A stretch of DNA of 24,836 nucleotides from a virus. Location: positions 1 through 24,836 of IMG/VR virus record IMGVR_UViG_3300007960_000172. One strand, written 5' to 3'. Position 1 is the stretch's first letter; the number at the start of each line of letters is the position of its first letter. This document shows positions 1 through 24,836 of the stretch, piece after piece. Both the position numbers and the translations under genes were made by a program. Below the pieces are notes generated by a model. It was not told the DNA's origin, ran no database searches, and was given only the letters and a program-made list of their open reading frames with translations.

Positions 1-57
1 GGGTCTGTAAAAATTTTCAAACACTTTTTTGAGTTTATATATTAGATATGAAATGAT

Positions 58-537
58 TTATTTAGATGATTTAGTAAATTCACTACCACAATTAGGACAC
101 TTGATTAGTTTTTTATTATCTAATTTACTTTTTTCTTCTAAATTAGTTAAATTTTCCCATACTCCTGTGTTTATACCCCAATCATCTAAGGGTAAGTTAT
201 CCCACTCATTTGCTAGTATGTCATCATCAAAACTACCTGATAAACCTGTGGGGTTGTTATCTTTAATAGCAAACTCTCTTTTTTGTTTAAGTGTCCATTT
301 TTTAGGAAGTTTTTTAAAATATTTCTTGTTGTACTCTACCTCACCTTGTTCAACTAGCATCTTATAAGCCCTAAATCTTTGATTTCCACCCCAAATTACA
401 AAATTATCATCATAAACTATCTGTCTTACTTCTAACATCTCTAAAAACTCTTTTAATGACTTTTTTAGTTTAAAAAACTGCTTTTCTGTGATTTGTCTGG
501 GATTATTTTCTAACAATTTAAGTTTATTTAGTAGCAT
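58..537 (-). CDS. ParB-like nuclease-fold (ParB/sulfiredoxin superfamily) protein
   Basis: A 159-residue protein and the only convincing minus-strand gene. The N-terminal half has the ParB N-terminal domain pattern: an N-P-R stretch near residue 12, a basic helix, then the G-G-N-Q-R-F box (about residues 50-55) that forms the nucleotide or phosphate-binding core. It continues with a conserved 'KDN' and a 'D-D-I-L-A-N-E-W' patch typical of the short phage ParB-like proteins. The C-terminus ends in a single C-P-N-C-G knuckle, half of a zinc ribbon. Phage proteins of this family often sit near DNA methyltransferases and terminases, and both occur here (886-2627 and 24135 onward). The start is chosen because an extended -10 element lies exactly 6 bases before this ATG and there is no Shine-Dalgarno. 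Real partition activity is unlikely because no ParA is seen; a role in DNA modification or nicking is inference. Confidence 0.8.
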   Translation of the reverse strand: MLLNKLKLLENNPRQITEKQFFKLKKSLKEFLEMLEVRQIVYDDNFVIWGGNQRFRAYKMLVEQGEVEYNKKYFKKLPKKWTLKQKREFAIKDNNPTGLSGSFDDDILANEWDNLPLDDWGINTGVWENLTNLEEKSKLDNKKLIKCPNCGSEFTKSSK

Positions 538-543
538 AATAAT

Positions 544-552
544 ATTCTAGCA
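544..552 (-). promoter_or_regulatory. Extended -10 promoter for the ParB-like gene (leaderless)
   Basis: Read on the minus strand this is TGCTAGAAT, a match to TGnTAnnnT, followed by six bases (attatt) and then the ATG at 537. Transcription would be expected to start at or next to the A of the start codon. There is no Shine-Dalgarno sequence, which fits a leaderless mRNA. Confidence 0.6.
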
Positions 553-664
553 TATAGATTGGGTAATAAAATAACTCACAAATAACGACCTCCCCTTTTA
601 AACCCCTCATTTTGTATCGTTTCCTTCTCATAGATAGATAGTTTGTATATCTACTATATCTCAC

Positions 665-681
665 CCCTGAAAAAGTCAGGG
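665..681. repeat. Perfect 6-bp hairpin in the divergent region
   Basis: CCCTGA (665-670), loop AAAAG, TCAGGG (676-681). No T-tract follows on the plus strand (next bases tcttgg), so it is not a standard intrinsic terminator. It could be a structured RNA element or a protein-binding site. Confidence 0.5.
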
Positions 682-827
682 TCTTGGTAACTCTTACCTA
701 TGTATGTTCTCGTTTCTTGTGTTATCTAGTCGTGAGGTATCCGTACTTGTTATTTATAGGATAAATTTAACTTTTTTGCAATATTTAAAAGATTTTTTTT
801 CTTAAAAGATGTCGTTATTTCTATATT

Positions 828-850
828 AGCACTTTACCTTTACGAGTGCT
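828..850. repeat. Inverted repeat upstream of the terminase-block promoter; possible operator
   Basis: AGCACT (828-833) is repeated inverted as AGTGCT (845-850) with an 11-base spacer. It sits just upstream of where a -35 element for the 871-879 promoter would lie, a plausible place for an activator or repressor site. The role is inferred from position only. Confidence 0.4.
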
Positions 851-870
851 TAATATATATTAACAAAAAG

Positions 871-879
871 TGTTACAAT
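871..879 (+). promoter_or_regulatory. Extended -10 promoter of the packaging block (leaderless)
   Basis: TGTTACAAT matches TGnTAnnnT and is close to the -10 consensus. Six bases (ttagtt) separate it from the ATG at 886, so the mRNA would begin at the start codon. No Shine-Dalgarno precedes this gene and no convincing -35 is seen. Confidence 0.65.
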
Positions 880-885
880 TTAGTT

Positions 886-1221
886 ATGGAGAAAACAATA
901 GATAAACCAATAAAGAAAAAGCAAGGATTTGCAGCACACCCTGAGAATATTAATAGAAATGGTAGACCTAAAAAGGGGCAAACACTTACTGATATTGCAA
1001 AAATAGTATTAGATGAAGAATTACCTAGTGGTATTACTAGAAAAGAAGCATTAATTAAAAAAGTAGCACAACTTGCTTACGATGGTGATAGTACAATGAT
1101 AAAATTGTTATGGAACTACATAGATGGTATGCCAAGACAAAGACAAGAGGTAACTGGTGCTGATGGTGATGGATTAGTAATTAAAGTAATTGATTACGAT
1201 GCAAATGATGCAGAGGAATAG
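886..1221 (+). CDS. Putative small terminase subunit (DUF5681-like)
   Basis: A 111-residue protein immediately upstream of the large terminase; its TAG stop overlaps the next GTG start by one base (TAGTG). The N-terminus is lysine-rich and contains a 'G-R-P-K-K-G' patch followed by a short helical region (about residues 33-85), as in the DUF5681 proteins commonly found next to phage TerL genes. The C-terminus is acidic. By position and family it most likely recognises phage DNA for packaging; the sequence does not show a classical TerS helix-turn-helix, so the role is inferred. It is the first gene of the plus-strand block and is preceded by an extended -10 promoter spaced for leaderless translation rather than by a ribosome binding site. 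Confidence 0.65.
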   Translation: MEKTIDKPIKKKQGFAAHPENINRNGRPKKGQTLTDIAKIVLDEELPSGITRKEALIKKVAQLAYDGDSTMIKLLWNYIDGMPRQRQEVTGADGDGLVIKVIDYDANDAEE

Positions 1222-2627
1222 TGCAACTAGAACTAAAACTACAACCAAAACAAAAAGAGGCTTTTCTTAAAAGTCAAGAAACACCCGTACTCTTTTATGG
1301 TGGTGCAAAAGGTGGTGGTAAAAGTTACCTTGTTAGAGCAAGGGAGTTATATAGAAGATTAAAATATCCAAACACAAGGGGTTTAATTATTAGAAAAACC
1401 TATCCCGAGTTAGTTGACAACCACATTACTAAATTTTTTGAGGAATACCCTATTACTAAGAAGTGGTTTAACAAGCAAGAAAAAGCAATTATTTACCCCA
1501 ATGGTTCAAAAACCCAATTTAGTTACCTACAAAATACAAATGATGTCTACACCTATCAGGGTAGAGAATTTGAAGATATTAGTATTGACGAGGCAACACA
1601 ACACGAGGAAGTTACACTTAAAATATTAAGAACCAGTAATAGAACAAGTAATGCTAAGTTTATTAAAATGGGGGGGCAAGTAAGTATGTTTTTAACTGGA
1701 AATCCTGGTGGAATTGGACACCAATGGGTTAAAAGGATATTTATTGATAAGATTTTTAGGGAAAGGGAAAACCCAGCAGATTTTGATTTTGTACAGGCAT
1801 TTGTACAAGATAACAAGGCAATGCTTACTGTTGACCCTAACTATATTGATAGATTAAAAGATAACCCCGAAGCAATTGTTAAGGCATACTTATATGGTGA
1901 TTGGAATATACACGAGGGTATTGCATTTAATGAGATGAACGAGCAGAAACATATTGTTGACCCCAAAGAGTTACCAGCAGGTACTACCTATTTTGCAGGG
2001 TATGACCACGGATATAACCACCCTTATAGTTTTGTTTTATTTGCAATAACACCAAATAGTGAAATTTATGTCGTTAATTACTTAAAAGATAGACTTAAAA
2101 GAATTGATGAGATTAGTAGTGATATTTTAGCAACCATACAGAGTTTAGATACAAAAGTTGTTGATATGTATTGTGGTATTGACTGTTGGAGTAGGGGTAG
2201 AGATGGTAGTCCAACAATAGCAGAGCAATTTTACAGGTTTGGACTTACTAGGACTAATGGTGTTAATGTTTTAAAAGCATACAATAATAGAGTGCAGGGT
2301 GTTAATGAAATTAGAAAGTTTGTTGCTTGGCAGAATACTGAAACAGAAATACCCCAAGTAAGGTTTTTTAAAAATGCTAAACCTGTTTTTGATATTGTTA
2401 GTGGTATGCAGTTTGATACACTTAAACCAGAAGATGTTATGAAAACTAATGCTGTTGATGGTGTTGGTGGTGATGACTTGTATGATGCTTTTAGGTATGG
2501 ACTTGTTAGTAGGGTTAAAACACCAAAAGTACCAGAGCAAGATTTACCAGAAAATAGCATTTATAGATTACTTCTTGAAGATATGCAAAAAGAGCAAATG
2601 TATGCAAATTTAGGAGAATTTTTATGA
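1221..2627 (+). CDS. terL: Large terminase subunit (DNA-packaging ATPase/nuclease)
   Basis: 468 residues, full length for the family. The N-terminal ATPase has a Walker A loop G-G-A-K-G-G-G-K-S at residues 27-35 and a Walker B ending in D123-E124 within 'I-S-I-D-E-A'. The C-terminal RNase H-like nuclease shows spaced acidic residues: D262 in 'G-Y-D-H-G', D321 in 'G-I-D-C', and D418/D419/D422 in 'G-G-D-D-L-Y-D-A-F-R-Y'. It pumps DNA into the prohead through the portal and cuts the concatemer. The start is GTG, overlapping the stop of the small terminase gene, with an AGGA a few bases upstream. The stop is TGA, the only TGA stop among the genes here, overlapping the ATG of the next gene; an in-frame TAA follows two codons later. 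Confidence 0.96.
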   Translation: MQLELKLQPKQKEAFLKSQETPVLFYGGAKGGGKSYLVRARELYRRLKYPNTRGLIIRKTYPELVDNHITKFFEEYPITKKWFNKQEKAIIYPNGSKTQFSYLQNTNDVYTYQGREFEDISIDEATQHEEVTLKILRTSNRTSNAKFIKMGGQVSMFLTGNPGGIGHQWVKRIFIDKIFRERENPADFDFVQAFVQDNKAMLTVDPNYIDRLKDNPEAIVKAYLYGDWNIHEGIAFNEMNEQKHIVDPKELPAGTTYFAGYDHGYNHPYSFVLFAITPNSEIYVVNYLKDRLKRIDEISSDILATIQSLDTKVVDMYCGIDCWSRGRDGSPTIAEQFYRFGLTRTNGVNVLKAYNNRVQGVNEIRKFVAWQNTETEIPQVRFFKNAKPVFDIVSGMQFDTLKPEDVMKTNAVDGVGGDDLYDAFRYGLVSRVKTPKVPEQDLPENSIYRLLLEDMQKEQMYANLGEFL

Positions 2628-3139
2628 CACTAATAATGTTTGATAAACCAGATGAAAATGTGGTTAAACAAGAGATACTTAAAATATTACAACCCCACTT
2701 TAAATTTGATATTAGTAAAAGAATTAGTGTTAGGGCTGATGTTAAACAATTTAAAATAAAAGAAGATGAGGGTGTTTGGAAACAAGCAAAGGGTAAAAGA
2801 CCACACTATTTTGAGATTTATTGGGATAGTGAGTGGATTAGTGATTTTGATACTAAAACAATAGGTGGGCACATTTTATACTCATTTTTAAAAGGATTTG
2901 CTAAAAAATACGAAGATGGACTTATTAACATAAACACCCTAGATAAATACAAAGAAATAGAAGATAAACAAAATACTGAAAAGATGATTGATGATGCTAT
3001 TAAAGAGCAACAAACAATGGTTAAAAAAGATGAAAATGAACAAATTGCTAGTAATGTTGTTGTTGAACTTTTAGAAGATAAAAAGGAAAAAGTTATAAAA
3101 ACTAAAAAGAAGATGGAGAAAATTTATGGAGAGATATAA
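2624..3139 (+). CDS. Unknown protein between terminase and helix-turn-helix gene
   Basis: A 171-residue protein I do not recognise. The first two thirds look globular, with aromatic residues around 'H-Y-F-E-I-Y-W-D-S-E-W'. The last 60 residues are highly charged, Lys/Glu-rich and probably helical or coiled coil. There is no signal peptide or membrane segment. The start at 2624 is supported by AGGAG at 2612-2616 with 7-base spacing; a second ATG at 2636 would remove four residues. It overlaps terL by ATGA and the next gene by TAATG, so it is translated as part of the packaging operon. A packaging accessory or head protein is possible, but this is only context. Confidence 0.75.
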   Translation: MTLIMFDKPDENVVKQEILKILQPHFKFDISKRISVRADVKQFKIKEDEGVWKQAKGKRPHYFEIYWDSEWISDFDTKTIGGHILYSFLKGFAKKYEDGLININTLDKYKEIEDKQNTEKMIDDAIKEQQTMVKKDENEQIASNVVVELLEDKKEKVIKTKKKMEKIYGEI

Positions 3140-3384
3140 TGTTTACAAGTTTACTGCCACCAGATGCAACACCAGAGGAACTTATGATATTAAATGCACT
3201 CGCTGTATATGTTTATCAGAAACTGGATAATCCTACTGATAAATTTATAGTAGCAATGATTTACGATATGGGTTATTCAAGAGAAGATACTGCAAGAGCA
3301 TTGGGAGTTAGTTATGTTACTGTCTATAAAAGGGACAAAGCAATTAAGCAAATTTTAAAGAAAGAATATAAAATTAAGGATTAA
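3139..3384 (+). CDS. Small helix-turn-helix protein
   Basis: 81 residues. The C-terminal half (about 48-75) reads as a sigma-region-4-like helix-turn-helix: 'Y-S-R-E-D-T-A-R-A-L-G-V-S-Y-V-T-V-Y-K-R', with the expected small residue and turn glycine, then a lysine-rich tail. It would bind DNA. It lies between the terminase genes and the portal, overlaps the previous gene by TAATG, and has GGAG 7 bases upstream. It could be a transcription regulator of the late genes or a second DNA-recognition subunit for packaging. A weak hairpin with a T-run overlaps its stop codon, suggesting that transcription may end or attenuate here before the portal promoter. Confidence 0.75.
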   Translation: MFTSLLPPDATPEELMILNALAVYVYQKLDNPTDKFIVAMIYDMGYSREDTARALGVSYVTVYKRDKAIKQILKKEYKIKD

Positions 3385-3395
3385 AACCTTTTTTT
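3376..3395 (+). terminator. Weak candidate terminator after the helix-turn-helix gene
   Basis: AAGG (3376-3379), a 7-base A/T loop, CCTT (3387-3390) and a continuous run of Ts to 3395. The stem is only 4 bp and overlaps the stop codon, so at best it attenuates transcription. Confidence 0.3.
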
Positions 3396-3403
3396 GATAG
3401 AGT
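3395..3403 (+). promoter_or_regulatory. Extended -10 promoter before the portal gene
   Basis: TGATAGAGT fits TGnTAnnnT and ends 7 bases before the portal ATG at 3411. There is no Shine-Dalgarno in the 26-base gap, so the portal mRNA is probably leaderless or nearly so. Confidence 0.5.
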
Positions 3404-3410
3404 TATTAAT

Positions 3411-5162
3411 ATGAATAGTTTATTGGAACTACTAAAATATAGATACAAAGTTTCCGAAGCACACAATAAAAATCAACACGAAGAAATTAAAAGATGTATT
3501 GCAGATTATGAAGCAGCAGAGTACAAAAGGGGTGGACTTGGTAAAGTATCATCAAGTAACACAGTTAGAACTGTACTAGATAGCGAGGGTAGGTATGTAA
3601 TTAGAATACCCTATATTTTTGCAACACACGAAAGTATGCTTGCATCTTTTTTTGATAGAGAACCCGATTTAGTTTTTAGGGGTAGAGGACAAGATGATTA
3701 CGAAAAAGAAGAAAAGGTTAAAGCAACCTACCAATACTTAATAGATAAGACTGACTTTCCACTTTTTATGAACGAAACTGCTTGGTGGTTTATTTTAACA
3801 GGTAACACCTATGGTGGTGCAGTATTTAAATCAGAAACCAAACAAGTACCTATGTATGATGATATGGGCGAGGTTATGGTTGATGAAAATGGTAAAGAAC
3901 TTACAAGAGAGGTTTATATTTACAATGACCCTGTACTTAATAGTTATGACCCTTTAAAGTTGTACTTTTCACCCGAAGCAAAGTTTAAAGAAAATGCTAG
4001 TGAAGTACCTTACTTTTTTTACAAAGCACAAATGGAAGTTGATGAGATTAAAAATGTTTATGGTGTTGAGGTTGAACCCGATAGCACTATAAAGATTGAA
4101 CTTAATGGTGTTGAAAAAGATAATGATGATATTAAAAGAGCAACAGTTTACTTCTATCAAGGACAAATACCTGAAAAACATAAAAAAGAAGTTAAAAACT
4201 GGAAATATGGTAATAATTACAACATAATTTACACAGATAATAAGATTTTATTAAAAGAAGAGATTAACGAAAAAACAATAAGGCTTGGAAGTTGGTATAG
4301 AATACCTAACAAGTTTTATGGGTTTGGTATTGGTAAAACTTTAAGGGAATTACAAAAAGAAATAATAATTAGAAGAAGTCAACAGATTAGATTTGCTGAC
4401 TTAAATGCTTTTCCTAAAATTGCTGTTGATGGTACTACCGAAGTTGATGAAAAAGCACTACTTGACCCAAGAGTTAATACTGTTTTGGTTTACAAGGAAG
4501 CACCACCACAATATTTAACCCCACCACCAATGAGCGACACTATACTAGGTATGGACGAAATCGCTAGAAGAGATGCACAGTTTGTATCAGGTATGATGGA
4601 CTTAACAAATGCAGCACAAAGTACATCAGTAGACACAGCAACAGGACAAACTATTTTTGCAGATGCTGCTGAAAGAAGAATTAGGCAAGGTAAAAGGCAA
4701 TTTGGTAGGTTTATTAGAGAAGTAGTTATTTTAATGCTTAAACTAGCACAAGAAAATTGGGACGAAGAAAAACTTGTAAGTATTACTGATGAAGACGGTA
4801 TGTCGAAAGAAATGGTACTAACTAAGTATGATTTACAGGATATTGATTTTGATAGAGATATTGATGTTGATTTAGAAAACATAAGTGTTAATAAAGATGT
4901 TTTAAGAGCACAGGCTATTGAAATGTACGATAGAATTAAAGATGACCCACTTGTTGATAGAGCAAAAGTATTTAAGAAGATGTTAAGAGATGGATTTAAT
5001 GAACAAAACCCAGATAACTTTTTAAAATCAGAAGAAGAGGTTATGCAAGAACAAATGCAAGAAATGCAACAAGGAGATATGCCAAAACCATCACCTAGAA
5101 ATGGGGAGATGCCAACAAGTCAAGAAGCAGTAGCAAGTACACCATTTCAGAATTTATTTTAA
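3411..5162 (+). CDS. Portal protein
   Basis: A 583-residue protein located between the terminase and scaffold/capsid genes, with the length and composition of short-tailed-phage portals. Visible portal features include an early D-R-E-P-D patch (about residues 81-85), the segment 'N-E-T-A-W-W-F-I-L-T-G-N-T-Y-G' around residues 120-135, and a long alpha-helical stretch near residues 370-450 ('A-R-R-D-A-Q-F-V-S-G', 'A-E-R-R-I-R-Q-G-K-R-Q-F-G-R-F') matching the stem and crown helices. The C-terminus is Met/Gln-rich. Twelve copies would form the DNA channel that docks the terminase and later the tail adaptor. No ribosome binding site is present; an extended -10 motif lies just upstream. Confidence 0.88.
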   Translation: MNSLLELLKYRYKVSEAHNKNQHEEIKRCIADYEAAEYKRGGLGKVSSSNTVRTVLDSEGRYVIRIPYIFATHESMLASFFDREPDLVFRGRGQDDYEKEEKVKATYQYLIDKTDFPLFMNETAWWFILTGNTYGGAVFKSETKQVPMYDDMGEVMVDENGKELTREVYIYNDPVLNSYDPLKLYFSPEAKFKENASEVPYFFYKAQMEVDEIKNVYGVEVEPDSTIKIELNGVEKDNDDIKRATVYFYQGQIPEKHKKEVKNWKYGNNYNIIYTDNKILLKEEINEKTIRLGSWYRIPNKFYGFGIGKTLRELQKEIIIRRSQQIRFADLNAFPKIAVDGTTEVDEKALLDPRVNTVLVYKEAPPQYLTPPPMSDTILGMDEIARRDAQFVSGMMDLTNAAQSTSVDTATGQTIFADAAERRIRQGKRQFGRFIREVVILMLKLAQENWDEEKLVSITDEDGMSKEMVLTKYDLQDIDFDRDIDVDLENISVNKDVLRAQAIEMYDRIKDDPLVDRAKVFKKMLRDGFNEQNPDNFLKSEEEVMQEQMQEMQQGDMPKPSPRNGEMPTSQEAVASTPFQNLF

Positions 5163-5164
5163 CT

Positions 5165-5434
5165 ATGATTAAAAAAGGTAAAGAAACATTTAAGGGATAC
5201 AACAAACCAAAAAGAACACCAAACCACCCAACTAAATCCCATGCAGTATTTGCTAAAAGTGGTGGTAAGGAAAAACTTATTAGATTTGGACAACAAGGTG
5301 TTAGTGGTGCAGGTGCAAATCCCAAAAGCAAAAAACAAAAGGCAAGGCAAAAATCTTTTAAAGCAAGGCACTCTAAAAATATAGCAAAAGGTAAAATGAG
5401 TGCTGCTTATTGGGCAGATAAGGTTAAGTGGTAG
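5165..5434 (+). CDS. Small conserved basic phage protein (DUF6321-like)
   Basis: 89 residues, strongly basic, starting two bases after the portal stop with no Shine-Dalgarno, so translation is probably coupled to the portal. It has the pattern I associate with a widespread small phage protein: an N-terminal 'K-R-T-P-N-H-P-T-K-S-H' motif, a central 'R-F-G-Q-Q-G-V-S-G-A-G' motif, and a C-terminus ending 'A-K-G-K-M-S-A-A-Y-W-A-D-K-V-K-W'. Its function is not established to my knowledge. The many Lys/Arg residues and the position among head genes suggest a DNA-associated or virion role. The only CATG found in the window (5240-5243) lies in this gene. Confidence 0.8.
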   Translation: MIKKGKETFKGYNKPKRTPNHPTKSHAVFAKSGGKEKLIRFGQQGVSGAGANPKSKKQKARQKSFKARHSKNIAKGKMSAAYWADKVKW

Positions 5435-5437
5435 TAT
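5429..5437 (+). promoter_or_regulatory. Possible extended -10 element
   Basis: TGGTAGTAT fits TGnTAnnnT, overlaps the end of the 5165 gene and would give a leader of about 15 bases with the GAAAGG site before the 5459 ATG. A match of this quality can occur by chance in AT-rich DNA. Confidence 0.3.
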
Positions 5438-5458
5438 AAAATTTATGAAAGGTATTTT

Positions 5459-5641
5459 ATGCCAAAAGTAGGTAATAAAGAATACTCATACACTAAAAAA
5501 GGTATGGAGATGGCTAAGAAAATGGCTAAAAAGATGGGCAAAAAAATGACATCTAAACCAACATCTAAACCAATGATGAAAAGAGAAATGAAACCAAAAG
5601 GCACTACTATTACAGAAATGCTTAAAAGAAGAAAAAAATAA
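5459..5641 (+). CDS. Lys/Met-rich small basic protein
   Basis: 60 residues, more than a third lysine, with a repeated K-K-M pattern (about residues 14-30) and a T-S-K-P repeat. The N-terminus 'M-P-K-V-G-N-K-E-Y-S-Y-T' resembles the start of short basic proteins found among phage head genes. GAAAGG lies 6 bases before the ATG. It is unlikely to be a shadow, since no larger ORF covers it and it fits exactly between its neighbours. Possible roles are DNA condensation or head assembly, by composition only. Confidence 0.65.
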   Translation: MPKVGNKEYSYTKKGMEMAKKMAKKMGKKMTSKPTSKPMMKREMKPKGTTITEMLKRRKK

Positions 5642-5642
5642 T

Positions 5643-5870: not shown

Positions 5871-5887
5871 TATATTAACCCCTATTG

Positions 5888-5896
5888 TGATATTAT
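5888..5896 (+). promoter_or_regulatory. Extended -10 promoter upstream of the scaffold/capsid genes
   Basis: TGATATTAT is a full match to TGnTAnnnT in the 87-base gap before the scaffold gene. Transcription would start near 5903, giving a leader of about 55 bases with a small CCC-TTAT-GGG hairpin (5918-5927) and an AAGGA site at 5946-5950. A separate capsid promoter fits the need for high capsid expression. Confidence 0.5.
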
Positions 5897-5957
5897 TTTT
5901 TTAAGTATATGAAACAACCCTTATGGGACTTCTAAATTTTTAAAAAAGGAACAAGTT

Positions 5958-6773: not shown

Positions 6774-6793
6774 AAAATTAAATTAAGGATAAT

Positions 6794-7738
6794 ATGACAG
6801 TAAATTTAGGGGTTATTGCTTCAACAACCTTACAGAATTACAGAAAAACATTAGCAGATAATATATTTAAAGATAATGTTTTACTAAATCACTTCCAAAA
6901 TAATAACGGAATTGAATACAAAGATGGTGGTAGAAGCATCGTAGTTCCAGTAATGTATGGAACAAACACAACAGTAGAAACTTTTACAGGTACAGATACT
7001 CTTGACCTTACTTACCAAGATGGTATTGATGCTGCTGAATACAACTGGGCTTTATACAATGTAAACATTGTTATAAGTTTAGAAGATGAAGCAAAAAATG
7101 CAGGTAGAAGTCAAGTAGTAGATTTGTTAAAGGCTAAGATAATGCAAGCAGAAAATTCATTAAAAGAAAGAATTAATAATGACTTCTTTAATGGTACTTC
7201 TGCAAACAAAGAGATAGTCGGTTTACAAACTGCTATTGGTACAGGTACTTATGGTGGTATTGCAGGTGGTACTTATACTTGGTGGAACTCTTATGTAGAA
7301 AGTTCAGCAGGTGCATTAAGTATTGATGACATCAGAACAGGATTAAACACAGTTAATAACGGTGCAGGTGGTTCAAAAGTATCCATAATGGTTACTACAC
7401 AAACACTACACGAAAAATATGAAAGTTTACTAACTACAACTATTAACTACGAAAGTTCATCAACAAAAGAAATGAAAAGATTAGGTGATGCAGGATTTTT
7501 AGCATTAGGTTTTAGAGGTATTCCAGTAGTATTTGATGAACAAACACCAAGTGGAGAGTTCTACTTCTTAAATACAGATAATCTAAAAATTGCTATGCAC
7601 AATGGTTATGACTTTAAAGTTATAGACAAAGGTGAACCTACAAACCAACACATCTCAGTACAAAGTATTGTTACTATGTTACAAAGTGTTGTTAATAGAA
7701 GAGCAAGTTTAGGTAAATTAACAGGTAAAACTGCTTAA
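6794..7738 (+). CDS. Major capsid protein
   Basis: 314 residues, directly after the scaffold gene with AAGGAT as ribosome binding site. The N-terminal pattern ('T-L-Q-N-Y-R-K-T-L-A-D-N-I-F-K-D-N'), 'G-G-R-S-I-V-V-P-V-M-Y-G', 'D-G-I-D-A-A-E-Y-N-W' and a long helix with 'L-L-K-A-K-I-M-Q-A-E' resemble a family of capsid proteins from environmental phages, expected to have the HK97 fold. The segment 'Y-F-L-N-T-D-N-L-K-I-A-M-H' near residue 260 and the C-terminal helix fit the A domain and spine. It forms the icosahedral shell. Like its neighbours it uses AGA for almost all arginine. Confidence 0.9.
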   Translation: MTVNLGVIASTTLQNYRKTLADNIFKDNVLLNHFQNNNGIEYKDGGRSIVVPVMYGTNTTVETFTGTDTLDLTYQDGIDAAEYNWALYNVNIVISLEDEAKNAGRSQVVDLLKAKIMQAENSLKERINNDFFNGTSANKEIVGLQTAIGTGTYGGIAGGTYTWWNSYVESSAGALSIDDIRTGLNTVNNGAGGSKVSIMVTTQTLHEKYESLLTTTINYESSSTKEMKRLGDAGFLALGFRGIPVVFDEQTPSGEFYFLNTDNLKIAMHNGYDFKVIDKGEPTNQHISVQSIVTMLQSVVNRRASLGKLTGKTA

Positions 7739-7763
7739 TAGTATAAATTTAGGAGATTAAAAT

Positions 7764-8225
7764 ATGGCATTCGCACAAGTTTTAAATCCATCACTTACAA
7801 GTAACGAAAGTACAGCAACTGCACAATTAGGAACTATATTTGAACAACCTAAAACAGGTAATATATTCAGATATATTCAAGTTGAAGATGCTAACTTAGT
7901 TGCAGGTGATGTTGTTGAATATGCAGACACAACAGGTTATTTAGTTACCAAAGATAGAGCAGGTGGTTCTTCTGTTGGTAGATTTGTAGCAGGTGTAGCA
8001 GTATCAGCAATAACTGATGGTAACTATGGTTGGGTACAAGTTAGTGGTGTAGCAACTGTAACTACTGATGGTGGTGTTGTTAAAGGTGATAGATTAGTTC
8101 CTCACGCAACAGCAGATGGACAGGCTGACACAGAAACAGCAGGTACAACAAGTGGTCAAGTATTTGGTGTAGCATTAGCAGATGATGTATCTAATGATGT
8201 AACAGCAATGATTAGATGCTTATAA
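7764..8225 (+). CDS. Capsid decoration-like protein (DUF2190-like)
   Basis: 153 residues, beta-rich, Gly/Val/Ala/Thr-rich and nearly free of long helices, following the capsid gene with AGGAG upstream. The alternation of 'G-D-V-V-E-Y-A', 'G-R-F-V-A-G-V-A', 'Y-G-W-V-Q-V-S-G' and 'G-D-R-L-V-P' is the pattern of DUF2190/decoration-type proteins, which form small beta barrels bound to the outside of the capsid. It probably stabilises the shell. It is the last gene before the only strong intrinsic terminator in the window, so it ends the head transcription unit. Confidence 0.72.
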   Translation: MAFAQVLNPSLTSNESTATAQLGTIFEQPKTGNIFRYIQVEDANLVAGDVVEYADTTGYLVTKDRAGGSSVGRFVAGVAVSAITDGNYGWVQVSGVATVTTDGGVVKGDRLVPHATADGQADTETAGTTSGQVFGVALADDVSNDVTAMIRCL

Positions 8226-14083: not shown

Positions 14084-16366
14084 ATGGCAACATTTAAACC
14101 AGTAGCAAGAAACATAGCACAAACACCACAATCATCTGCTGAATACTTAGCAATGATTGAAGAAAGAAATAGATTAAGAAGACCACAAGATACAGCAATG
14201 GGTTTTGATATTGATAGAAGACCTGCATCTTTTGCACTTCCACAAACTAGGGGTGTATCACAGGTTCTACCATCAACACAATTACAAACACCTGTAACAC
14301 CATCACAAACTTTACAAAATGCTTACACAACACCTTTACAACCACAACAACCTATGCAACAACCAATGTCTGCATTAAATCAGGAAATGAGTTCAAATAT
14401 TAAACCTCAATCTATTAATTTTATTGAAAATTTAATACAAGCATCACAACCACAAATAACTGGTAGAGATAGAGATGGAAATATTTACTACAACAATAAT
14501 ACTGTTAAAGATGTTACTGGTGTTACTTACGATTTAGGTACAGGAGAAATTCTTAGTATTGAACCTGAGTTTGTAAGTTTTAGAGATGATTTACTTATTA
14601 GTAGAGATGGACAAGTTTTTAGAGATTATACAAGTGAGTTTAAACCAACAGGTAATGCTTCAAGAGATTTACAATCAATGCTTTTTAATGGTAATCAGTA
14701 CCAAATAACACAAGAATATGGAAACTATAACCCAAACCGTTATTACACTTATCATCAAGGTTTAGATATTGCTGGTGCAGGTGAGTGGAAAGTACCTTTA
14801 TCACTACCTTTTGAAACACAAGTAGTTGGTAAATTAATTGATGGTGTTAACGACCAAGGATATGGTAACTCAATATTAGTACAACTACCTACTGGTGAAA
14901 GATTTAGACTATCACATTTATCACAAACAAACTTTAATGTTGGGGACACAATTAGGGCTGGTGAAATCATAGGTATTACTGGTACAACAGGAAATTCAAC
15001 AGGTTATCACTTAGACTTAGAATACTATGATGAAAATAATCAAAGACAAAATCCATACAATTTTATACAAAAAGTACAACAAAACCCACAAGAATACCGA
15101 ATACAAAGCAGAGTACCTGTTAGTTATGATGATTTAACACCAGACCAAAGAGCAGAAGCAATGTATTGGAGAGCAAGTAGTGGTAAGTTAACAGAAGAGG
15201 ATAGAGTTTTATATCCCGATGCAGTTGCTAGTGCTGAAAGAAGAATTAACACACCAAGAACTATTGCAAGAGCATTGCCAGAAACTGAAACACCAACTGA
15301 AACACCAACAGAAACACCAATGAATTTGAGTAATAGAGTTGCACAATTTGGTACTAATAGAAATTTACCAGAATTAGGTGCATCTGAACTTCTTGCTGGT
15401 GATATTAGAGGTGCTTCAAGAAATATAGGTCAAACTTTGGCACAAACTGGTAGAAATATTAATGCACCAGACTTAGGAGTTTCTGAACTTTTAGCAGGTG
15501 ATTTTAGGGGTGCTACAAGTAACTTAGGTGAAACTATTGGACAGATTGGTAGAGATGTTAATGCACCAGAATTTGGTGTATCTGAAACAATAAGTTCTTT
15601 ACCTGATTTCTTACAAAGAGGACAACAACTAGCAAATAACATTTTAAATAATTTAAACCCAACAGCAGAAGCACAATCAGATATACAAGATTTTAGTAGA
15701 CAAGAGTTAGGTAAAAAATCAACCATAGATGAAAATAGAGGATTACAATTTGGTAACTTCCAACCATCTAACTTAGGTAGACAATACAATCAGCAAAGAA
15801 CAATTATTGATAATGAGTTTAAACAACCTACAAACCCATTAAGTTCTGTAACTAAACCTATTGGACAAGAGGGTTTCGCTGGTAATCAATTAATGTCTGG
15901 TGTTACTGCAAAAGGTTCACAATCAGCAGATAGAACAAATACTTCAAGTGATATTGCAGGTTTAGATAACCAACAAAGTAGAGAAAGTTCAGTACAACAA
16001 TTATTCTCACCATCAAAAACTGTATTTAGTAGACCTGTAAGTACATCAAAATCAAGTTCATCAAGTAAAAAATCTAGTTCTAAGAAATCTGATGATAAAA
16101 AGAAATCAAGTAGTTCAAGTAGTAAATCTAGTAGCAAATCTAGTTCAAGTAAATCTAGTAGCAAATCTAGTAGTAAATCAAGTAGTTCGAGCAGTAAATC
16201 AAGTTCTAGTATAAAAAAATACTACTCACCACCTAAATCACAATCAAAGTCATCAAAAGTAAAAGAGGCTTTTAAAAAAGCAACACCAAAGAAATCAACA
16301 TCAAAACCAAAAAAGAGTGTATTTAAAAAGGTAAGTTCTTGGATTAAAAGTATTTTTAAAAGATAA
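14084..16366 (+). CDS. Large virion protein with M23 peptidase-like domain
   Basis: 760 residues from the ATG at 14084, which has AAGGA 7 bases upstream; the TTG at 14066 lies before that site and was rejected. Residues 1-120 are Gln/Pro-rich. At about 205-335 there is an M23/LytM-type endopeptidase domain: H224-x-x-x-D228, H278 in 'L-S-H-L-S' and 'G-Y-H309-L-D311', with the family's Gly-rich turns between. The usual second His of HxH is Asp here. Next come an E-T-P-T repeat (about 401-414), two to three related 31-35-residue repeats (about 426-515), and a Ser/Lys low-complexity stretch (about 654-715) before a basic C-terminus. A virion-borne wall-cutting protein for genome entry is likely. 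Confidence 0.78.
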   Translation: MATFKPVARNIAQTPQSSAEYLAMIEERNRLRRPQDTAMGFDIDRRPASFALPQTRGVSQVLPSTQLQTPVTPSQTLQNAYTTPLQPQQPMQQPMSALNQEMSSNIKPQSINFIENLIQASQPQITGRDRDGNIYYNNNTVKDVTGVTYDLGTGEILSIEPEFVSFRDDLLISRDGQVFRDYTSEFKPTGNASRDLQSMLFNGNQYQITQEYGNYNPNRYYTYHQGLDIAGAGEWKVPLSLPFETQVVGKLIDGVNDQGYGNSILVQLPTGERFRLSHLSQTNFNVGDTIRAGEIIGITGTTGNSTGYHLDLEYYDENNQRQNPYNFIQKVQQNPQEYRIQSRVPVSYDDLTPDQRAEAMYWRASSGKLTEEDRVLYPDAVASAERRINTPRTIARALPETETPTETPTETPMNLSNRVAQFGTNRNLPELGASELLAGDIRGASRNIGQTLAQTGRNINAPDLGVSELLAGDFRGATSNLGETIGQIGRDVNAPEFGVSETISSLPDFLQRGQQLANNILNNLNPTAEAQSDIQDFSRQELGKKSTIDENRGLQFGNFQPSNLGRQYNQQRTIIDNEFKQPTNPLSSVTKPIGQEGFAGNQLMSGVTAKGSQSADRTNTSSDIAGLDNQQSRESSVQQLFSPSKTVFSRPVSTSKSSSSSKKSSSKKSDDKKKSSSSSSKSSSKSSSSKSSSKSSSKSSSSSSKSSSSIKKYYSPPKSQSKSSKVKEAFKKATPKKSTSKPKKSVFKKVSSWIKSIFKR
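15285..15323 (+). repeat. 12-base tandem repeat encoding an E-T-P-T linker
   Basis: Three near-identical copies of a 12-base unit (gaaacaccaact type) encode E-T-P-T-E-T-P-T-E-T-P. It forms a probable flexible linker between the peptidase half and the repeat half of the 14084 gene. Confidence 0.7.
15359..15630 (+). repeat. Imperfect ~31-35-residue internal repeats in the M23 virion protein
   Basis: Two long and one partial copy of a unit beginning R-N-(I-N-A/L)-P-(E/D)-L-G-(A/V)-S-E-L-L-A-G-D and ending I-G-Q-x-x-x-Q-x-G. The third copy keeps 'N-A-P-E-F-G-V-S-E' and then diverges. The divergence at DNA level shows the duplication is not recent. Confidence 0.75.
16041..16222 (+). repeat. Ser/Lys low-complexity segment
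   Basis: About 60 residues of alternating serine runs and lysines, written with a mix of AGT, AGC, TCA and TCT codons (many 'aaatctagt' units). It precedes a Lys-rich C-terminal tail. A disordered, DNA- or membrane-contacting linker is plausible. Confidence 0.8.
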
Positions 16367-20183: not shown

Positions 20184-20440
20184 TGGCAATACCATTAAGT
20201 TTAAATGACAGAGAACACAGAAAGTTTAAAGATGTTCAAAATGATGTTGCAGTAAAAGTTACTGATATAGTTGGTAACTCACTTGTTCCCAGCACCTACG
20301 ATTACATAAATTTATCTTATACAGATGGAAATTTAACTACTGTAATTTATAAGATTGGTGGAAGTGCTGGTACAACAGTATCTACACTAACCCTTGCTTA
20401 TGATGTAGATAATAACCTAATATCTGTGGAGAAATCATAA
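20183..20440 (+). CDS. Small tail-associated protein
   Basis: 85 residues, mostly beta, with AAGGAG upstream and one-base stop/start overlaps on both sides. The pattern 'D-V-A-V-K-V-T-D-I-V-G', 'S-Y-T-D-G-N-L-T-T-V-I-Y-K-I-G-G' and 'V-S-T-L-T-L-A-Y-D' is one I associate with small proteins encoded next to phage tail fibres, of unproven function. It may be a fibre base or head-fibre connector. The lack of membrane segments argues against a lysis role. Confidence 0.65.
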   Translation: MAIPLSLNDREHRKFKDVQNDVAVKVTDIVGNSLVPSTYDYINLSYTDGNLTTVIYKIGGSAGTTVSTLTLAYDVDNNLISVEKS

Positions 20441-21291
20441 TGGCAAATAAGATTGTATTTAATCCATTTACAAGTAGTTTTGATTATATAAATGCAGAAT
20501 TACCACAATCACTATACTTTTACGGTAAGGCAAGTGGTGCAATAACAAAGGGTGATTTGGTTCAATTTGCAGGAGTTCAGGGCGACCATATACTAATAAA
20601 AAAGTGTGTGGTTAGTGAAATACAGGCAAACCCTACTTATTTTATTGGAGTTGCAACACAAGACTTATCAAATGGTGATTTTGGTTACTCTACTTGGTTT
20701 GGAGAAGTTGATAAGATTTATACAGATACACCAGATAATGGTGATAGTGCAGATTGGGCAGGAGGAGATATACTTTACTTTTCAAATACAACAGGGGGTT
20801 TAACAAATACAGCACCTACACCACCAGATACCTACATTGAAATTGCAGCAGTAGAAAAAGTACAAACAGGAAATAGTCAAACAGGTAGGATAGTAGTTAG
20901 ACCCACAATACACCATAAGTTAGATAAATTATCAGATGTAGATACAACAGGAATTGCAGATGGATATGTTTTGAAATGGGACAACACAAATAGCAAATGG
21001 ATTGTAGGAACAGTTACAGCAACAACAAATTGGGGTTCAATTACAGGAACATTATCAAATCAAACAGACTTACAAACAGCATTAGATACAAAAGTTACAT
21101 ATCACGGAGAACACGATACAGACCCAGCAGTTACACCATCTAATGGCGATGAGTATTGGAATAATTTAGATGAAAAAATACAAGTGTATATAAATAGATG
21201 GAGAGAATTAAATGGGGCAGATAGGTTTCAATTTACAGATGATAGCGATTTTCAATTTACTGATGATAGTTATTATCAACTAACAAGTTAA
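20440..21291 (+). CDS. Tail fibre protein with C-terminal tandem repeats
   Basis: 283 residues. The N-terminal 150 residues are a beta module ('Y-F-Y-G-K-A-S-G-A-I-T-K-G-D-L-V-Q-F') resembling phage fibre proteins, with 'I-G-V-A-T-Q-D-L-S-N-G-D-F-G-Y' typical of capsid/fibre beta barrels. Then 'L-D-K-L-S-D-V-D-T-T-G-I-A-D-G-Y-V-L-K-W-D' is the short repeat unit common in phage fibre shafts. The C-terminus has three tandem copies of an 8-residue F-Q-F-T-D-D-S-(D/Y) unit. Translation starts inside the previous stop (TAATGG) with GGAG upstream. It probably forms a trimeric fibre with the following glycine-rich protein. Confidence 0.72.
   Translation: MANKIVFNPFTSSFDYINAELPQSLYFYGKASGAITKGDLVQFAGVQGDHILIKKCVVSEIQANPTYFIGVATQDLSNGDFGYSTWFGEVDKIYTDTPDNGDSADWAGGDILYFSNTTGGLTNTAPTPPDTYIEIAAVEKVQTGNSQTGRIVVRPTIHHKLDKLSDVDTTGIADGYVLKWDNTNSKWIVGTVTATTNWGSITGTLSNQTDLQTALDTKVTYHGEHDTDPAVTPSNGDEYWNNLDEKIQVYINRWRELNGADRFQFTDDSDFQFTDDSYYQLTS
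21226..21288 (+). repeat. 24-base tandem repeat at the fibre C-terminus
   Basis: Two full copies and one partial copy of a 24-base unit encode F-Q-F-T-D-D-S-D, F-Q-F-T-D-D-S-Y and Y-Q-L-T-S. Short aromatic/acidic tandem tails like this are found at the ends of many phage fibre proteins. Confidence 0.8.
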
Positions 21292-21293
21292 GG

Positions 21294-21299
21294 TATAAT
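21294..21299 (+). promoter_or_regulatory. TATAAT -10 element, leaderless spacing
   Basis: A perfect consensus TATAAT followed by six bases (ttatat) and the ATG at 21306. It lacks the TG extension and has no clear -35. The nearest AGG is 12 bases from the ATG, too far for a good ribosome binding site, so initiation may be leaderless. Confidence 0.5.
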
Positions 21300-21305
21300 T
21301 TATAT

Positions 21306-22481
21306 ATGGCACAATTAACTAGCAGAACAGAATTAACAACACCAGCAGATGATGATTTACTGCACATAATAGATAAGTCAGATACAACTGATGGGGTTAA
21401 TGGTACTTCAAAAAAGATACAAAAAAGTAATTTAATATCAGGATTAACTGCAAGCGATATTACAGATTTTGATACAGAAGTTGCAAACAATTCAGCAGTA
21501 ACACTAAATACTGCAAAGGTAACAAATGCAACACATACAGGTGAAGTTACAGGAAGTGGTGCTTTAACAATAGCAGATAATGTAGTTGATGAGGCAAATC
21601 TAAAACTAGATACAGCACCAACAAATGATTATATTTTAACAGCAGATAGCACAGCAAGTGGGGGTATGAAATGGGCAGAAGCACCAGCAAGTTCCCCACT
21701 TACTACAAAGGGTGATTTATATACTTACGATACAGATAATGCCAGATTACCAATAGGTACAGATGGGCAAATGCTAGTAGCAGATAGTGTTGAAACCACA
21801 GGACTTAAATGGGTAGATACAGGAATTGATGAAATAAATATAAATGTTTTTACAGGAAATGGAACTTGGACAAAACCAGCAGGGCTAAAATACATAATAG
21901 TTGAAGTCGTTGGTGGTGGAGGTGGTGGTGGAGGTTGTGATGGTGATGTAGGAGATACTGCTAACTCTGGTGGAGGTGGTGGTGGTGGTTACACCCTTAA
22001 AAAGATACTAGCATCTTCACTAGGTTCAACAGAAACAGTAACAGTAGGAACAGGTGGTGCAGGTGCAACAGGAGCCAGTACAGGAACAGCAGGTGGTACT
22101 TCTTCATTTGGCAGTCATTGTTCAGCAACAGGTGGTGCTGGTGGTGCTGGAAATAGCCCATCTAATCTAGTTCCTAGAAGAGGGCTTAGTTGTGGTGCAG
22201 GTGGTGTAGGCACAGGTGGAGATGTTAATGGAGCAGGACAAACAGGACCAAATGGATTTAATTTAGCACTTGCTGGATATGGACAAGTATCTGGTGGTGG
22301 TGGTGGTTCAATGTATGGTGGTGGTGGCAGACAGCAAATAGCAGTCAATTCAACAGGTGATAATGGAATTGGATATGGTGGTGGTGGTGGTGGTACTGTT
22401 GCTTATAATGTTAATGCCAACTACACAGGTGGAGATGGTACAGATGGAGTAGTAGTAGTTTATGAATATATGGAGGCATAA
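21306..22481 (+). CDS. Tail fibre/tip protein with glycine-rich adhesin-like domain
   Basis: 391 residues. The N-terminus ('S-R-T-E-L-T-T-P-A-D-D-D-L-L-H-I-I-D') is the common phage fibre start in which a small beta repeat lists 'DDLLHIID'-like units. A central shaft has 'G-E-V-T-G-S-G-A-L-T-I-A-D-N-V-V-D-E'. From about residue 180 a 'F-T-G-N-G-T-W-T-K-P-A-G' strand leads into a large glycine-rich domain (about 195-391) with several runs of five or more glycines, encoded by GGT/GGA repeats. Such domains fold as polyglycine-II-type sheets in phage adhesin tips and determine receptor specificity. It is followed by a tail-assembly chaperone, which fits a trimeric fibre needing help to fold. Confidence 0.78.
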   Translation: MAQLTSRTELTTPADDDLLHIIDKSDTTDGVNGTSKKIQKSNLISGLTASDITDFDTEVANNSAVTLNTAKVTNATHTGEVTGSGALTIADNVVDEANLKLDTAPTNDYILTADSTASGGMKWAEAPASSPLTTKGDLYTYDTDNARLPIGTDGQMLVADSVETTGLKWVDTGIDEININVFTGNGTWTKPAGLKYIIVEVVGGGGGGGGCDGDVGDTANSGGGGGGGYTLKKILASSLGSTETVTVGTGGAGATGASTGTAGGTSSFGSHCSATGGAGGAGNSPSNLVPRRGLSCGAGGVGTGGDVNGAGQTGPNGFNLALAGYGQVSGGGGGSMYGGGGRQQIAVNSTGDNGIGYGGGGGGTVAYNVNANYTGGDGTDGVVVVYEYMEA

Positions 22482-22822
22482 TGAAAGCACTAATACACAA
22501 CGATAAAATAATAGAGATAACAGAAAATACTTACCCAACACACGAAAGTCTTACCTGGATAGATTTACCACAAGGTGCAGAAGTAGGAGATGGATATGTT
22601 GATGGGCAGTTAGTTAAACCACAACAAGCAGGAGTAACTTGGGATGATATTAGAGCAGAAAGAAATTATTTACTAGCACAAAGTGATTGGCACATAACCT
22701 ATGCAACAGAAAAAGGTACAGCAGTTCCACAAAATGTTTTAGATTACAGGGCAAAGTTAAGAAATATTCCACAAGACTTTGCTACACCAGAGGAAGTCGT
22801 GTTCCCAACCTTAATGTTCTAG
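22481..22822 (+). CDS. Tail fibre assembly chaperone-like protein
   Basis: 113 residues, overlapping the previous stop by one base and preceded by GGAGG. The C-terminal half has the pattern of phage tail assembly chaperones (Phage_tail_APC/XkdW-like): 'W-D-D-I-R-A-E-R-N-Y-L-L-A-Q-S-D-W', then 'V-L-D-Y-R-A-K-L-R-N-I-P-Q' and a proline-rich C-terminus. The N-terminal half ('A-L-I-H-N-D-K-I-I-E-I') is a small beta unit. Its position straight after the glycine-rich fibre supports a role in folding that fibre; the stop is TAG. Confidence 0.72.
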   Translation: MKALIHNDKIIEITENTYPTHESLTWIDLPQGAEVGDGYVDGQLVKPQQAGVTWDDIRAERNYLLAQSDWHITYATEKGTAVPQNVLDYRAKLRNIPQDFATPEEVVFPTLMF

Positions 22823-22831
22823 TGTGAAATT

Positions 22832-22840
22832 TGCTAATAT
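22832..22840 (+). promoter_or_regulatory. Possible extended -10 promoter of the lysis block
   Basis: TGCTAATAT fits TGnTAnnnT in the 90-base gap 22823-22912 before the lysis genes. A start near 22847 would give a leader of about 66 bases. No terminator or strong -35 is seen in the gap. Confidence 0.35.
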
Positions 22841-22912
22841 TTAAGTGTCTGGGATAAACGATTAATATAAATACACCTATTATGTTTTTACGATATTCTG
22901 GACAATAATAAT

Positions 22913-23137
22913 ATGATGAAAACTGACACAATACTAAAATATTTAATACCTTTACTCACACTAGCAGTCGCTTGGGGTGTTATGGAAACAAAAATTGCTC
23001 ATTTTGACCAAAGAATAACAAAGGTTGAAGATAAGATTGAAAGGTTAGATGAAACCTTTATCAGTATTGAGATTAGACTGACAGAAATACAAAAAGATAT
23101 ACAAGCAATTAATTCAAAATTAGATGAAAGGCAGTAA
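22913..23137 (+). CDS. Membrane-anchored coiled-coil protein (lysis-associated)
   Basis: 74 residues: a short N-terminal charged segment, one membrane segment (about 8-23, 'L-K-Y-L-I-P-L-L-T-L-A-V-A-W-G'), then a coiled coil with heptads ('F-D-Q-R-I-T-K-V-E-D-K-I-E-R-L-D-E') to the end. The stop overlaps the endolysin start by TAATG. Its architecture resembles small proteins that accompany holins and spanins (XhlA- or Rz-like in general form), but there is no lipoprotein box or second partner to call a spanin. The start has no ribosome binding site; the ATG at 22916 is an equally possible start. Confidence 0.65.
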   Translation: MMKTDTILKYLIPLLTLAVAWGVMETKIAHFDQRITKVEDKIERLDETFISIEIRLTEIQKDIQAINSKLDERQ

Positions 23138-23952
23138 TGCTTACACTTAAAGAATTTATAAAAAAATATACAGGTGTTAAATGTGGAAACACAGATGCTA
23201 ACTTTGGAGAGTGTGTTGGACTTGCAATGTTATGGACTGAAAATCTTGGACTTGCACACACTTGGGGAAATGCAAAAGATACTTACTCAAATGCCAAAAC
23301 AGCAGATTTTATAAAAATACCAAACTCACCAAATGCTTATCCTGTTGCTGGTGACCTTATGTGCTGGGATAGTTCTATGGGTGGTGGTTATGGACACATA
23401 GGGGTTATTACAGAAAGTAATGCAGATGAAGATACTTTTACAGTATTTGAACAAAACAACCCATTAGGTTCTCCACCAAAGATAACTAAATACACAAAGT
23501 GGAGTGGTGTTATCGGGTGGCTTAGACCAAAAGTATTAGCAGAGCAGACAGATGACTGCGAGAAAAAGATTAAGGAATTAGAAAAAGATATACAAAAGGT
23601 AACTACTGAAAAAGATAAGTACAAAAACGAAGCAAGGGATAGTAGAGCAGAAATTAAAGAATTAAAAAAGCAGGTAGAGGATAGGGATACCTTAGTAAAT
23701 AACATTAAAGAAATAAATGCAGAATTAGAAAACCAATTAAATGACTGTAAGGTCGAAAATGCCAATCTAAGAGATGAAATTAGTGAAAGTAATAAAACAC
23801 TAGGGATAGTTAAGGCAAACTACACAAAATGCAAAAACAGGCTTTCTAAGTGCAAAGAAAATAAGAATTGCACACTAGAAGATTTAGTTGAATTTATTAA
23901 AAATAAAATTTTAGAAATTTGGAACAATGTTAAACAAACAAAACTTAAATAA
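23137..23952 (+). CDS. CHAP-domain endolysin
   Basis: 271 residues. The N-terminal CHAP domain (about 1-132) shows the amidase/endopeptidase residues: C26 in 'G-E-C-V-G-L-A', H87 in 'Y-G-H-I-G-V-I' and E105-Q-N near 'T-V-F-E-Q-N-N', plus the conserved 'P-V-A-G-D-L-M-C-W'. It cleaves peptidoglycan at the end of infection. The remaining 140 residues are a long charged coiled coil with six scattered cysteines rather than an SH3 or other known wall-binding domain, which is unusual. There is no signal peptide, so release depends on a holin. The start overlaps the previous stop with AAGG upstream. The holin-like gene overlaps its 3' end. Confidence 0.85.
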   Translation: MLTLKEFIKKYTGVKCGNTDANFGECVGLAMLWTENLGLAHTWGNAKDTYSNAKTADFIKIPNSPNAYPVAGDLMCWDSSMGGGYGHIGVITESNADEDTFTVFEQNNPLGSPPKITKYTKWSGVIGWLRPKVLAEQTDDCEKKIKELEKDIQKVTTEKDKYKNEARDSRAEIKELKKQVEDRDTLVNNIKEINAELENQLNDCKVENANLRDEISESNKTLGIVKANYTKCKNRLSKCKENKNCTLEDLVEFIKNKILEIWNNVKQTKLK

Positions 23953-24148
23953 ATGGAAAAATAACTCATTAACTTTTTTAGCACCCCTATTTATTCTATA
24001 TCTAGTAACCATACAAGGTAGAATACAAGAAAATGGTATTACACTTGATGATTTTTACCTCGATGAAAAAATGATAGGTGCAATGAGTTTATATGTTATA
24101 AATGTCTTATTAGATTTTTTTAAGAAGTACAAAAGTGATAATAAATAA
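23927..24148 (+). CDS. Holin-like membrane protein
   Basis: 73 residues with two membrane segments: about 14-31 ('L-T-F-L-A-P-L-F-I-L-Y-L-V-T-I-Q') and about 49-67 ('M-I-G-A-M-S-L-Y-V-I-N-V-L-L-D-F-F'), separated by a short polar loop, and a basic C-terminus ('K-K-Y-K-S-D-N-K'). This is the shape of a class II holin. It starts inside the last 26 bases of the endolysin gene and itself overlaps the methyltransferase gene, so the three are translated as a cassette. Holin function is inferred from topology and context. A GGA close to the start is the only ribosome binding site-like signal. Confidence 0.72.
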   Translation: MLNKQNLNKWKNNSLTFLAPLFILYLVTIQGRIQENGITLDDFYLDEKMIGAMSLYVINVLLDFFKKYKSDNK

Positions 24149-24836
24149 CGACAACATACAAGCATTAAAAGAACTAGAAGATAATAGCATTGATAGTGTT
24201 GTTACAGACCCACCCTACGGATTGTCATTTATGGGTAAGAAGTGGGACTATGATGTACCCAGCAAAGAGTTATGGCTTGAAGTATTCAGAGTACTAAAAC
24301 CAGGTGGGCACTTATTATCATTTGGTGGCAGTAGAACTTATCACAGACTAGCAGTAGGTATTGAAGATGCAGGTTTTGAAATCCGTGACCAAATAATGTG
24401 GGTTTATGGTAGTGGGTTTCCTAAATCACACAATATAGGTAAAGCAGTTGATAAGTTACAAGGCAACTCAAAATGGGAAGGATGGGGAACAGCACTTAAA
24501 CCAGCACACGAACCTATTGTACTAGCAAGAAAACCATTATCTGAAAAGACAGTTGCTGAAAATGTATTGAAATGGGGAACAGGTGGAATAAACATTGATG
24601 AGTGTAGGGTTGAGGCAAATGAGGAAATTACTGAAAGAGTAAGTAAAGGTGGTAACAAAAACAAATCAAATGCAATGAATGAATTAAAAGAAGTTATTTA
24701 TCAAGGAAATGTTTTAGGCAGATTTCCAGCAAACTTTATTCACGATGGAAGTGATGAGGTTGTTGATATGTTTCCTAATTCTAAAAGTAATTGGAAAAAT
24801 AAAGATATTCATAAAGGAGATTTAGGAATATCTAAC
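24135..24836 (+). CDS. DNA methyltransferase (beta-type, N6-adenine or N4-cytosine), cut by the window end
   Basis: 234 codons are visible and the reading frame is open to the last base, so the gene is 3'-truncated here. It is not visible in any other frame and begins at a GTG; the frame upstream is closed by a TAG at 24111. The GTG start lies inside the holin-like gene (14-base overlap). The catalytic D-P-P-Y motif is at about residues 25-28, followed by 'G-L-S-F-M-G-K-K-W-D', 'V-L-K-P-G-G-H-L-L-S-F-G-G', and 'Q-I-M-W-V-Y-G-S-G-F-P-K-S'. The DPPY motif near the N-terminus puts the cofactor-binding part downstream, the order of beta-class enzymes. The target site cannot be read from sequence. 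Confidence 0.88.
   Translation, partial: MIINNDNIQALKELEDNSIDSVVTDPPYGLSFMGKKWDYDVPSKELWLEVFRVLKPGGHLLSFGGSRTYHRLAVGIEDAGFEIRDQIMWVYGSGFPKSHNIGKAVDKLQGNSKWEGWGTALKPAHEPIVLARKPLSEKTVAENVLKWGTGGINIDECRVEANEEITERVSKGGNKNKSNAMNELKEVIYQGNVLGRFPANFIHDGSDEVVDMFPNSKSNWKNKDIHKGDLGISN

Follow-up and report, generated by a model that had tools for sequence, protein, structure and literature searches.

At least seven short DNA words are absent or nearly absent from the late-gene region of a putative podovirus-like phage

Missing words in the window

We analysed a 24,836 bp stretch of viral DNA (IMG/VR record IMGVR_UViG_3300007960_000172, positions 1-24,836; hereafter the window), which, judging by its genes, is the late-gene region of a tailed, podovirus-like phage, and which lacks nearly all copies of several short DNA words. 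Base frequencies are A 39.3, T 28.0, G 19.1 and C 13.6% (G+C 33%). The original prediction had reported no GATC, GANTC or AGCT and only one CATG, and exact counts agreed: GATC 0, GANTC 0 (GAATC, GATTC, GAGTC and GACTC each 0), AGCT 0 and CATG 1. The word-free stretch and the few residual sites are listed here.

1..24836, no strand: stretch free of GATC, GANTC, AGCT, CTNNAG, ACGT, GTCTC/GAGAC and CACTG/CAGTG (counts 0; coding codon-shuffle expectation 45, 36, 77, 67-88, 20, 17 and 14, in that order)
5240..5243, no strand: the sole CATG (exact count)
623..627, + strand: residual CCTTC, non-coding (2 CCTTC in the window vs ~26 expected in coding sequence)
24477..24481, + strand: residual GAAGG (CCTTC on the - strand), within the methyltransferase gene (from the count)
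7768..7772, + strand: residual CATTC (2 CATTC in the window vs ~22 expected)
24677..24681, + strand: residual GAATG (CATTC on the - strand), within the methyltransferase gene (from the count)

Expected numbers came from shuffling synonymous codons 300 times in 28 genes that together make up 97% of the window. The shuffled sequences contained on average 45.3 GATC, 35.8 GANTC, 76.5 AGCT and 22.9 CATG, with minima of 31, 23, 59 and 14. The earlier estimate of 60-70 copies per site was therefore too high for every site except AGCT, which left its conclusion unaffected. Base independence gave 71 per 4-mer and 71 for GANTC summed, and a second-order Markov model gave 51 GATC, 32 GANTC, 62 AGCT and 49 CATG. 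Since codon shuffles predict many copies, codon and amino acid use is not the cause of the missing words; the deficits survived both the Markov and the codon-shuffle check that the original prediction had called for. The strictest shuffle also fixed the dinucleotides at codon junctions and by construction absorbs part of the signal; it still predicted 59 AGCT, 76 CTNNAG, 14 CATG and 8 GATC, and under it only GANTC lost significance (4.9 expected, minimum 0). With that one failure, codon-shuffle, dinucleotide and Markov controls all indicated that the avoidance is not due to amino acids, codons or composition.

The pattern is also visible in the choice of codons. The zero counts persisted across the three reading frames. 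GAT was followed by C in 0 of 438 cases, while GAC was followed by C 26 times; an A never preceded GCT and preceded GCA 200 times. These counts bear out the codon remarks made from reading the sequence. Palindromes are not lost in general: GTAC (95), TGCA (164) and CTAG (83) all lay close to expectation.

Additional missing words were identified with a greedy motif caller, in which each called word was masked before the next search. The caller returned AGCT (0 observed/75 expected, z -12.4), CTNNAG (0/75, z -9.4), GATC (0/42, z -9.0), GANTC (0/33, z -7.4), CCTTC (1/24, z -6.6), CATG (1/22, z -5.9), ACGT (0/20, z -5.6) and CATTC (2/21, z -5.6), followed by its weakest words, GAGAC (GTCTC; 0/15, z -4.6) and CACTG (0/12, z -4.3). 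The calling step returned no call in 20 shuffled control genomes. An observed/expected ratio below 0.1 with at least 15 copies expected was reached by AGCT, CTNNAG, GATC, GANTC, CCTTC, CATG, ACGT and CATTC (~0.095). GTCTC, with 0 copies vs 15-17 expected, is likely avoided, and CACTG possibly or probably so; some of the weaker words (GTCTC, CACTG, and ACGT apart from RCGY) may not be specificities of their own. The original prediction of at least four specificities was correct in that they are multiple, and it was an undercount, with CTNNAG, ACGT/RCGY, CCTTC, CATTC, GTCTC and probably CACTG also missing.

In a scan of spaced palindromes CTNNAG was absent vs 67-88 copies expected, while its spacing variants were near expectation (CTNAG 34/47, CTNNNAG 79/80). 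The strongest excess among the spaced palindromes tested was that of CTNNNNAG (66-68 copies vs 35-44 expected). CCTTC and CATTC merge into a degenerate word, CMTTC, whose neighbour GAAAG was not depleted (66/49). Of the four CCTTC/CATTC sites that remain, two (24477 and 24677) lie in the methyltransferase gene, and they may hint at its recent acquisition. Once the nine strongest words were masked, no other 4-base word was eliminated at the tested spacings except CGCA (4/29), and CRTAYG, CAATTG, CATATG, CTCCAG and other 6-mers were too rare for a call. CpG was depleted as well (rho 0.19; 0.59-0.93 in relatives) and unevenly so: NCGA was normal (98/99), RCGY stood at 4/50 and CCGC at 0/12, the affected contexts being CGC, CGG and CGT. 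Part of this depletion may represent another specificity, RCGY.

Gene content and related phages

The terminase large subunit gene places the window in a tailed phage, and terminase, portal and major capsid genes are present in late-gene order, as in Caudoviricetes. The principal genes are the following.

58..537, - strand: ParB-like domain protein (phrog_498 3e-16; phrog_620 1e-13)
1221..2627, + strand: terminase large subunit (phrog_979 3e-45; Pfam Terminase_3/6N)
3411..5162, + strand: portal protein (Pfam SU10_portal / P22_portal; ~56% identity to related contigs L001 and L010)
6794..7738, + strand: major capsid protein, SU10-like (phrog_9953 2e-58; the query for finding relatives)
14084..16366, + strand: virion protein with M23 peptidase domain (Pfam PF01551)
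23137..23952, + strand: CHAP-domain endolysin (Pfam PF05257; phrog_635)
24135..24836, + strand: DNA methyltransferase N6_N4_Mtase, DPPY, truncated by the window end (PF01555 4e-12; phrog_67 7e-40)

Tail and virion proteins, LamG proteins and glycine-rich proteins make up further genes, and no tRNA genes were found in the window. The methyltransferase shares up to ~60% identity with methyltransferases of phages (Klebsiella, Salmonella 9NA and others). The ParB-like protein resembles the N-terminal part of the phage methyltransferase family phrog_498 and is without a methyltransferase domain. Since the window ends showed no terminal repeat, and the methyltransferase did not continue from one end to the other, the window was handled as a linear fragment. 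The virus record carries no completeness estimate; comparison with relatives suggests that the window represents ~60% of a genome, without the replication genes, the other ~40% lying out of view. The nearest annotated relative that shares the head module order is podovirus ct52p938 (MW202803.1, handle L023; 42,055 bp, circular), which has a similar head module and gene order and a capsid protein 33% identical. Its annotation, together with the P22/SU10-like portal, suggests that the window phage has a short tail, that is, podovirus morphology. Unlike the window, MW202803.1 avoids CCGG (0/104) and TTAA (1/45).

Relatives were found by searching with the major capsid protein; a single-protein search of IMG/VR with the terminase yielded none, and aligning the portal and terminase proteins brought in no other close relative. 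Two of the relatives, L010 and L001, are syntenic with the window. L010, which has the closest capsid (63% identical), had normal numbers of all four words first reported: GATC 45/42, GANTC 42/47, AGCT 37/37 and CATG 33/35. L001 (capsid 59%, same gene order) lacked GATC (0/48) and CATG (0/31) but kept GANTC (55/56) and AGCT (93/89), and eliminated GGCC, CCGG, GGNNCC and GCNNGC instead. All 13 related contigs checked had CTNNAG numbers close to expectation, and none of the 13 had eliminated GAAKG. The avoided words thus vary between related phages, as a host-driven cause predicts, and since L001 shares only the GATC and CATG deficits of the window and L010 shares none, the missing set is a property of the lineage rather than of the family or its proteins.

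Homologous residues provided a direct comparison. Where these two relatives carried avoided-type sites over identical residues, 0 of 66 were kept in the window, vs 45 of 116 control sites (Fisher p 3e-11; eight control words, matched in composition only approximately), and at these positions the window differed through silent changes only. This result, the shuffle controls and the differing sets in relatives all support the proposal in the original prediction that several sites were selected against at once. Because L010 has no GATC, GANTC, AGCT or CATG deficit, the pressure is recent relative to the age of this phage family.

Other words were depleted among the relatives. GGNNCC (NlaIV-type word) was strongly depleted in most of L001, L002, L004, L008, L010, L011, L012 and L013 (e.g. 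0/23, 1/26, 0/15), and CCGG and GGCC were also depleted in several of these. L005 eliminated another set (GGCC 0/22, CGCG 0/15, CCAGG 1/18, CTNAG 1/21 and CGTCC 0/18). From translations read by eye, genes resembling glycosyltransferases and methyltransferases follow the capsid genes downstream in L010 (10855-13899) and L001 (7285-8545); such genes were not seen in the window.

Explanations for the missing words

We consider it very likely that the words were lost by selective purging of sites that are cut by several type II-like restriction systems in the host, or hosts, that the phage has at present. DNA of the window phage would enter hosts guarded by several restriction-modification systems, in which every unmodified recognised word would be a possible cut point in the incoming DNA. 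Variants that lose a word through a mostly silent change would survive more often, and repeated selection could have left at least seven words with almost no copies. The purged set would comprise AGCT, CTNNAG, GATC, GANTC, CATG, ACGT (perhaps RCGY), and CCTTC and CATTC (perhaps one specificity, CMTTC). Type II site elimination is documented in phages (PMC6286503).

The agent would be a set of type II-like endonucleases. Short and mostly palindromic words, as here, are the mark of type II systems: six of the words (AGCT, GATC, CATG, ACGT, GANTC and CTNNAG) are palindromic, while CCTTC, CATTC, GTCTC and CACTG lack symmetry and could at best be of a type IIS-like kind. The palindromic avoided words match type II specificities (MboI/DpnII, HinfI, AluI, NlaIII and HpyCH4IV types), and CCTTC, GTCTC and CACTG fit known specificities, asymmetric or related, of the HpyAV, BsmAI and TspRI types. 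Host systems of the MboI, HinfI, AluI and NlaIII types, as named in the original prediction, are candidate agents. CTNNAG is an m6A methylation motif in Mycoplasma dispar GS01 (PMC6385981), and adenine methylation at CTNNAG occurs in AaV, a giant virus of algae (PMC12700378). In these two systems the word is a methylation motif, whereas in the window it is avoided, and this avoidance suggests an endonuclease. The literature found describes methylation only and no CTNNAG endonuclease, REBASE having been outside this search, and no paper was found on CMTTC/GAAKG as a methylation motif. A Mycoplasma host (TGA = Trp), considered for CTNNAG and the low CpG, was ruled out, since Trp is encoded by TGG in 88 of 88 cases and TGA serves as stop.

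Several observations weigh against this explanation. Neither a host nor an endonuclease, methyltransferase or methylome of one was found, and the enzymes are for that reason deduced from the words; the one genome scan yielded nothing more than a distant relative, a 5.3 kb contig with a capsid 35% identical in a Planctomycetales bin, which was not counted as host evidence. Four of the words are asymmetric, and phages are reported to eliminate type III and IIG sites rarely (PMC6286503), although recognition of the type IIS kind would be compatible with such words. The CpG depletion overlaps in part with the ACGT signal, so that ACGT is perhaps no specificity of its own. The approximate composition matching in the homologous-residue test, and the chance that the phage's own methyltransferase might have protected some sites, count on the same side.

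How many hosts are involved is less certain. That a host bears an active CTNNAG-recognising endonuclease together in the same cell with at least six further systems for short words, the missing words being a readout of the restriction enzymes of an uncultured host, is a tentative proposal to which we give slightly less than an even chance. If instead several alternating hosts carried a few systems each, the same words could be lost, and nine strong words, exceeding every comparison phage (0-6 strong calls), would be easier to understand. Near-complete loss of every word would be hard to maintain by rarely visited hosts, although this is an argument and not a test. By judgement we modestly favour one host, and regard alternating hosts as plausible but somewhat less so.

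If the words had been removed by methyltransferases or nucleases that the phage itself encodes, or by some other process with sequence specificity, for instance a mutational bias, the methyltransferase gene (24135-24836), the ParB-like gene (58-537) and the CpG depletion in CGC, CGG and CGT contexts could be read as its traces. Self-methylation would, however, relax avoidance of its word and not create it, and nine words are beyond the reach of one or two methyltransferases; the phage's own methyltransferase cannot account for the avoidance of many words. Plain CpG mutation bias as the sole cause was ruled out by NCGA being at expectation. We regard this family of explanations as very unlikely.

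The two remaining alternatives are barely credible. Amino acids, codon preference and low G+C might by themselves remove words, and the G+C of 33%, the CpG depletion and scarce C-ending codons do leave CCGG, GCGC and GGCC absent with low expectation, but shuffles that keep amino acids and codon use still yield 23-88 copies of the main words, the dinucleotide-keeping shuffle still yields 59 AGCT and 76 CTNNAG, a word with altered spacing occurs about as often as expected, and the shuffle controls refute the idea for AGCT, CTNNAG, GATC, CATG and CCTTC. An old avoidance passed down through the whole family would agree with the loss of GATC and CATG in L001, but is refuted by the normal counts in L010 and by CTNNAG in the 13 contigs.

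Comparison with known systems and significance

The same caller was applied to a panel of 11 phages, hand-picked and not a survey, with a strong call defined as z below -4.3. The window gave nine strong calls, vs 4-6 in T7, 5 in phi29, 5 in HTVC010P, 5-6 in Bacteroides phage B40-8, 5 in MW202803, 5 in L001, 2 in KHP30, 1-3 in sk1, and 0 in Flavobacterium phage 11b, 44AHJD and L010. Site loss in the window goes further than in 11 of 11 comparison phages. The avoidance in T7 (GATC, CCWGG) and phi29 (GATCC, GGCC, CGCG, GCAGC) was picked up as in the window, at fewer strong calls. Pelagibacter phage HTVC010P (L027, NC_020481) resembles the window in being A+T-rich and CpG-poor (0.31) and in having eliminated words (CTNAG 0/62, ACGG 0/41), but differs in its word set and shows no close kinship.

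Rusinov et al. (2018) reported total or almost total elimination in ~1/10 of viral genomes, nearly only of orthodox type II sites (PMC6286503). Like their non-temperate double-stranded DNA phages, the window has lost short, mostly palindromic type II-like words at an observed/expected ratio <0.1. Unlike those cases, it has lost seven or more words within a single stretch of 25 kb, including CTNNAG and several asymmetric 5-mers, and here the words predict the enzymes and not the reverse.

Site elimination is already known, and the window is an extreme and clean case of it: at least seven words are gone from 25 kb, spacing variants and other palindromes are near normal, and a related phage free of the deficits serves as a natural control. 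The words that a metagenomic phage lacks can predict which restriction specificities its unknown host has, CTNNAG among them, and the set of missing words is a signature for matching phage with host.

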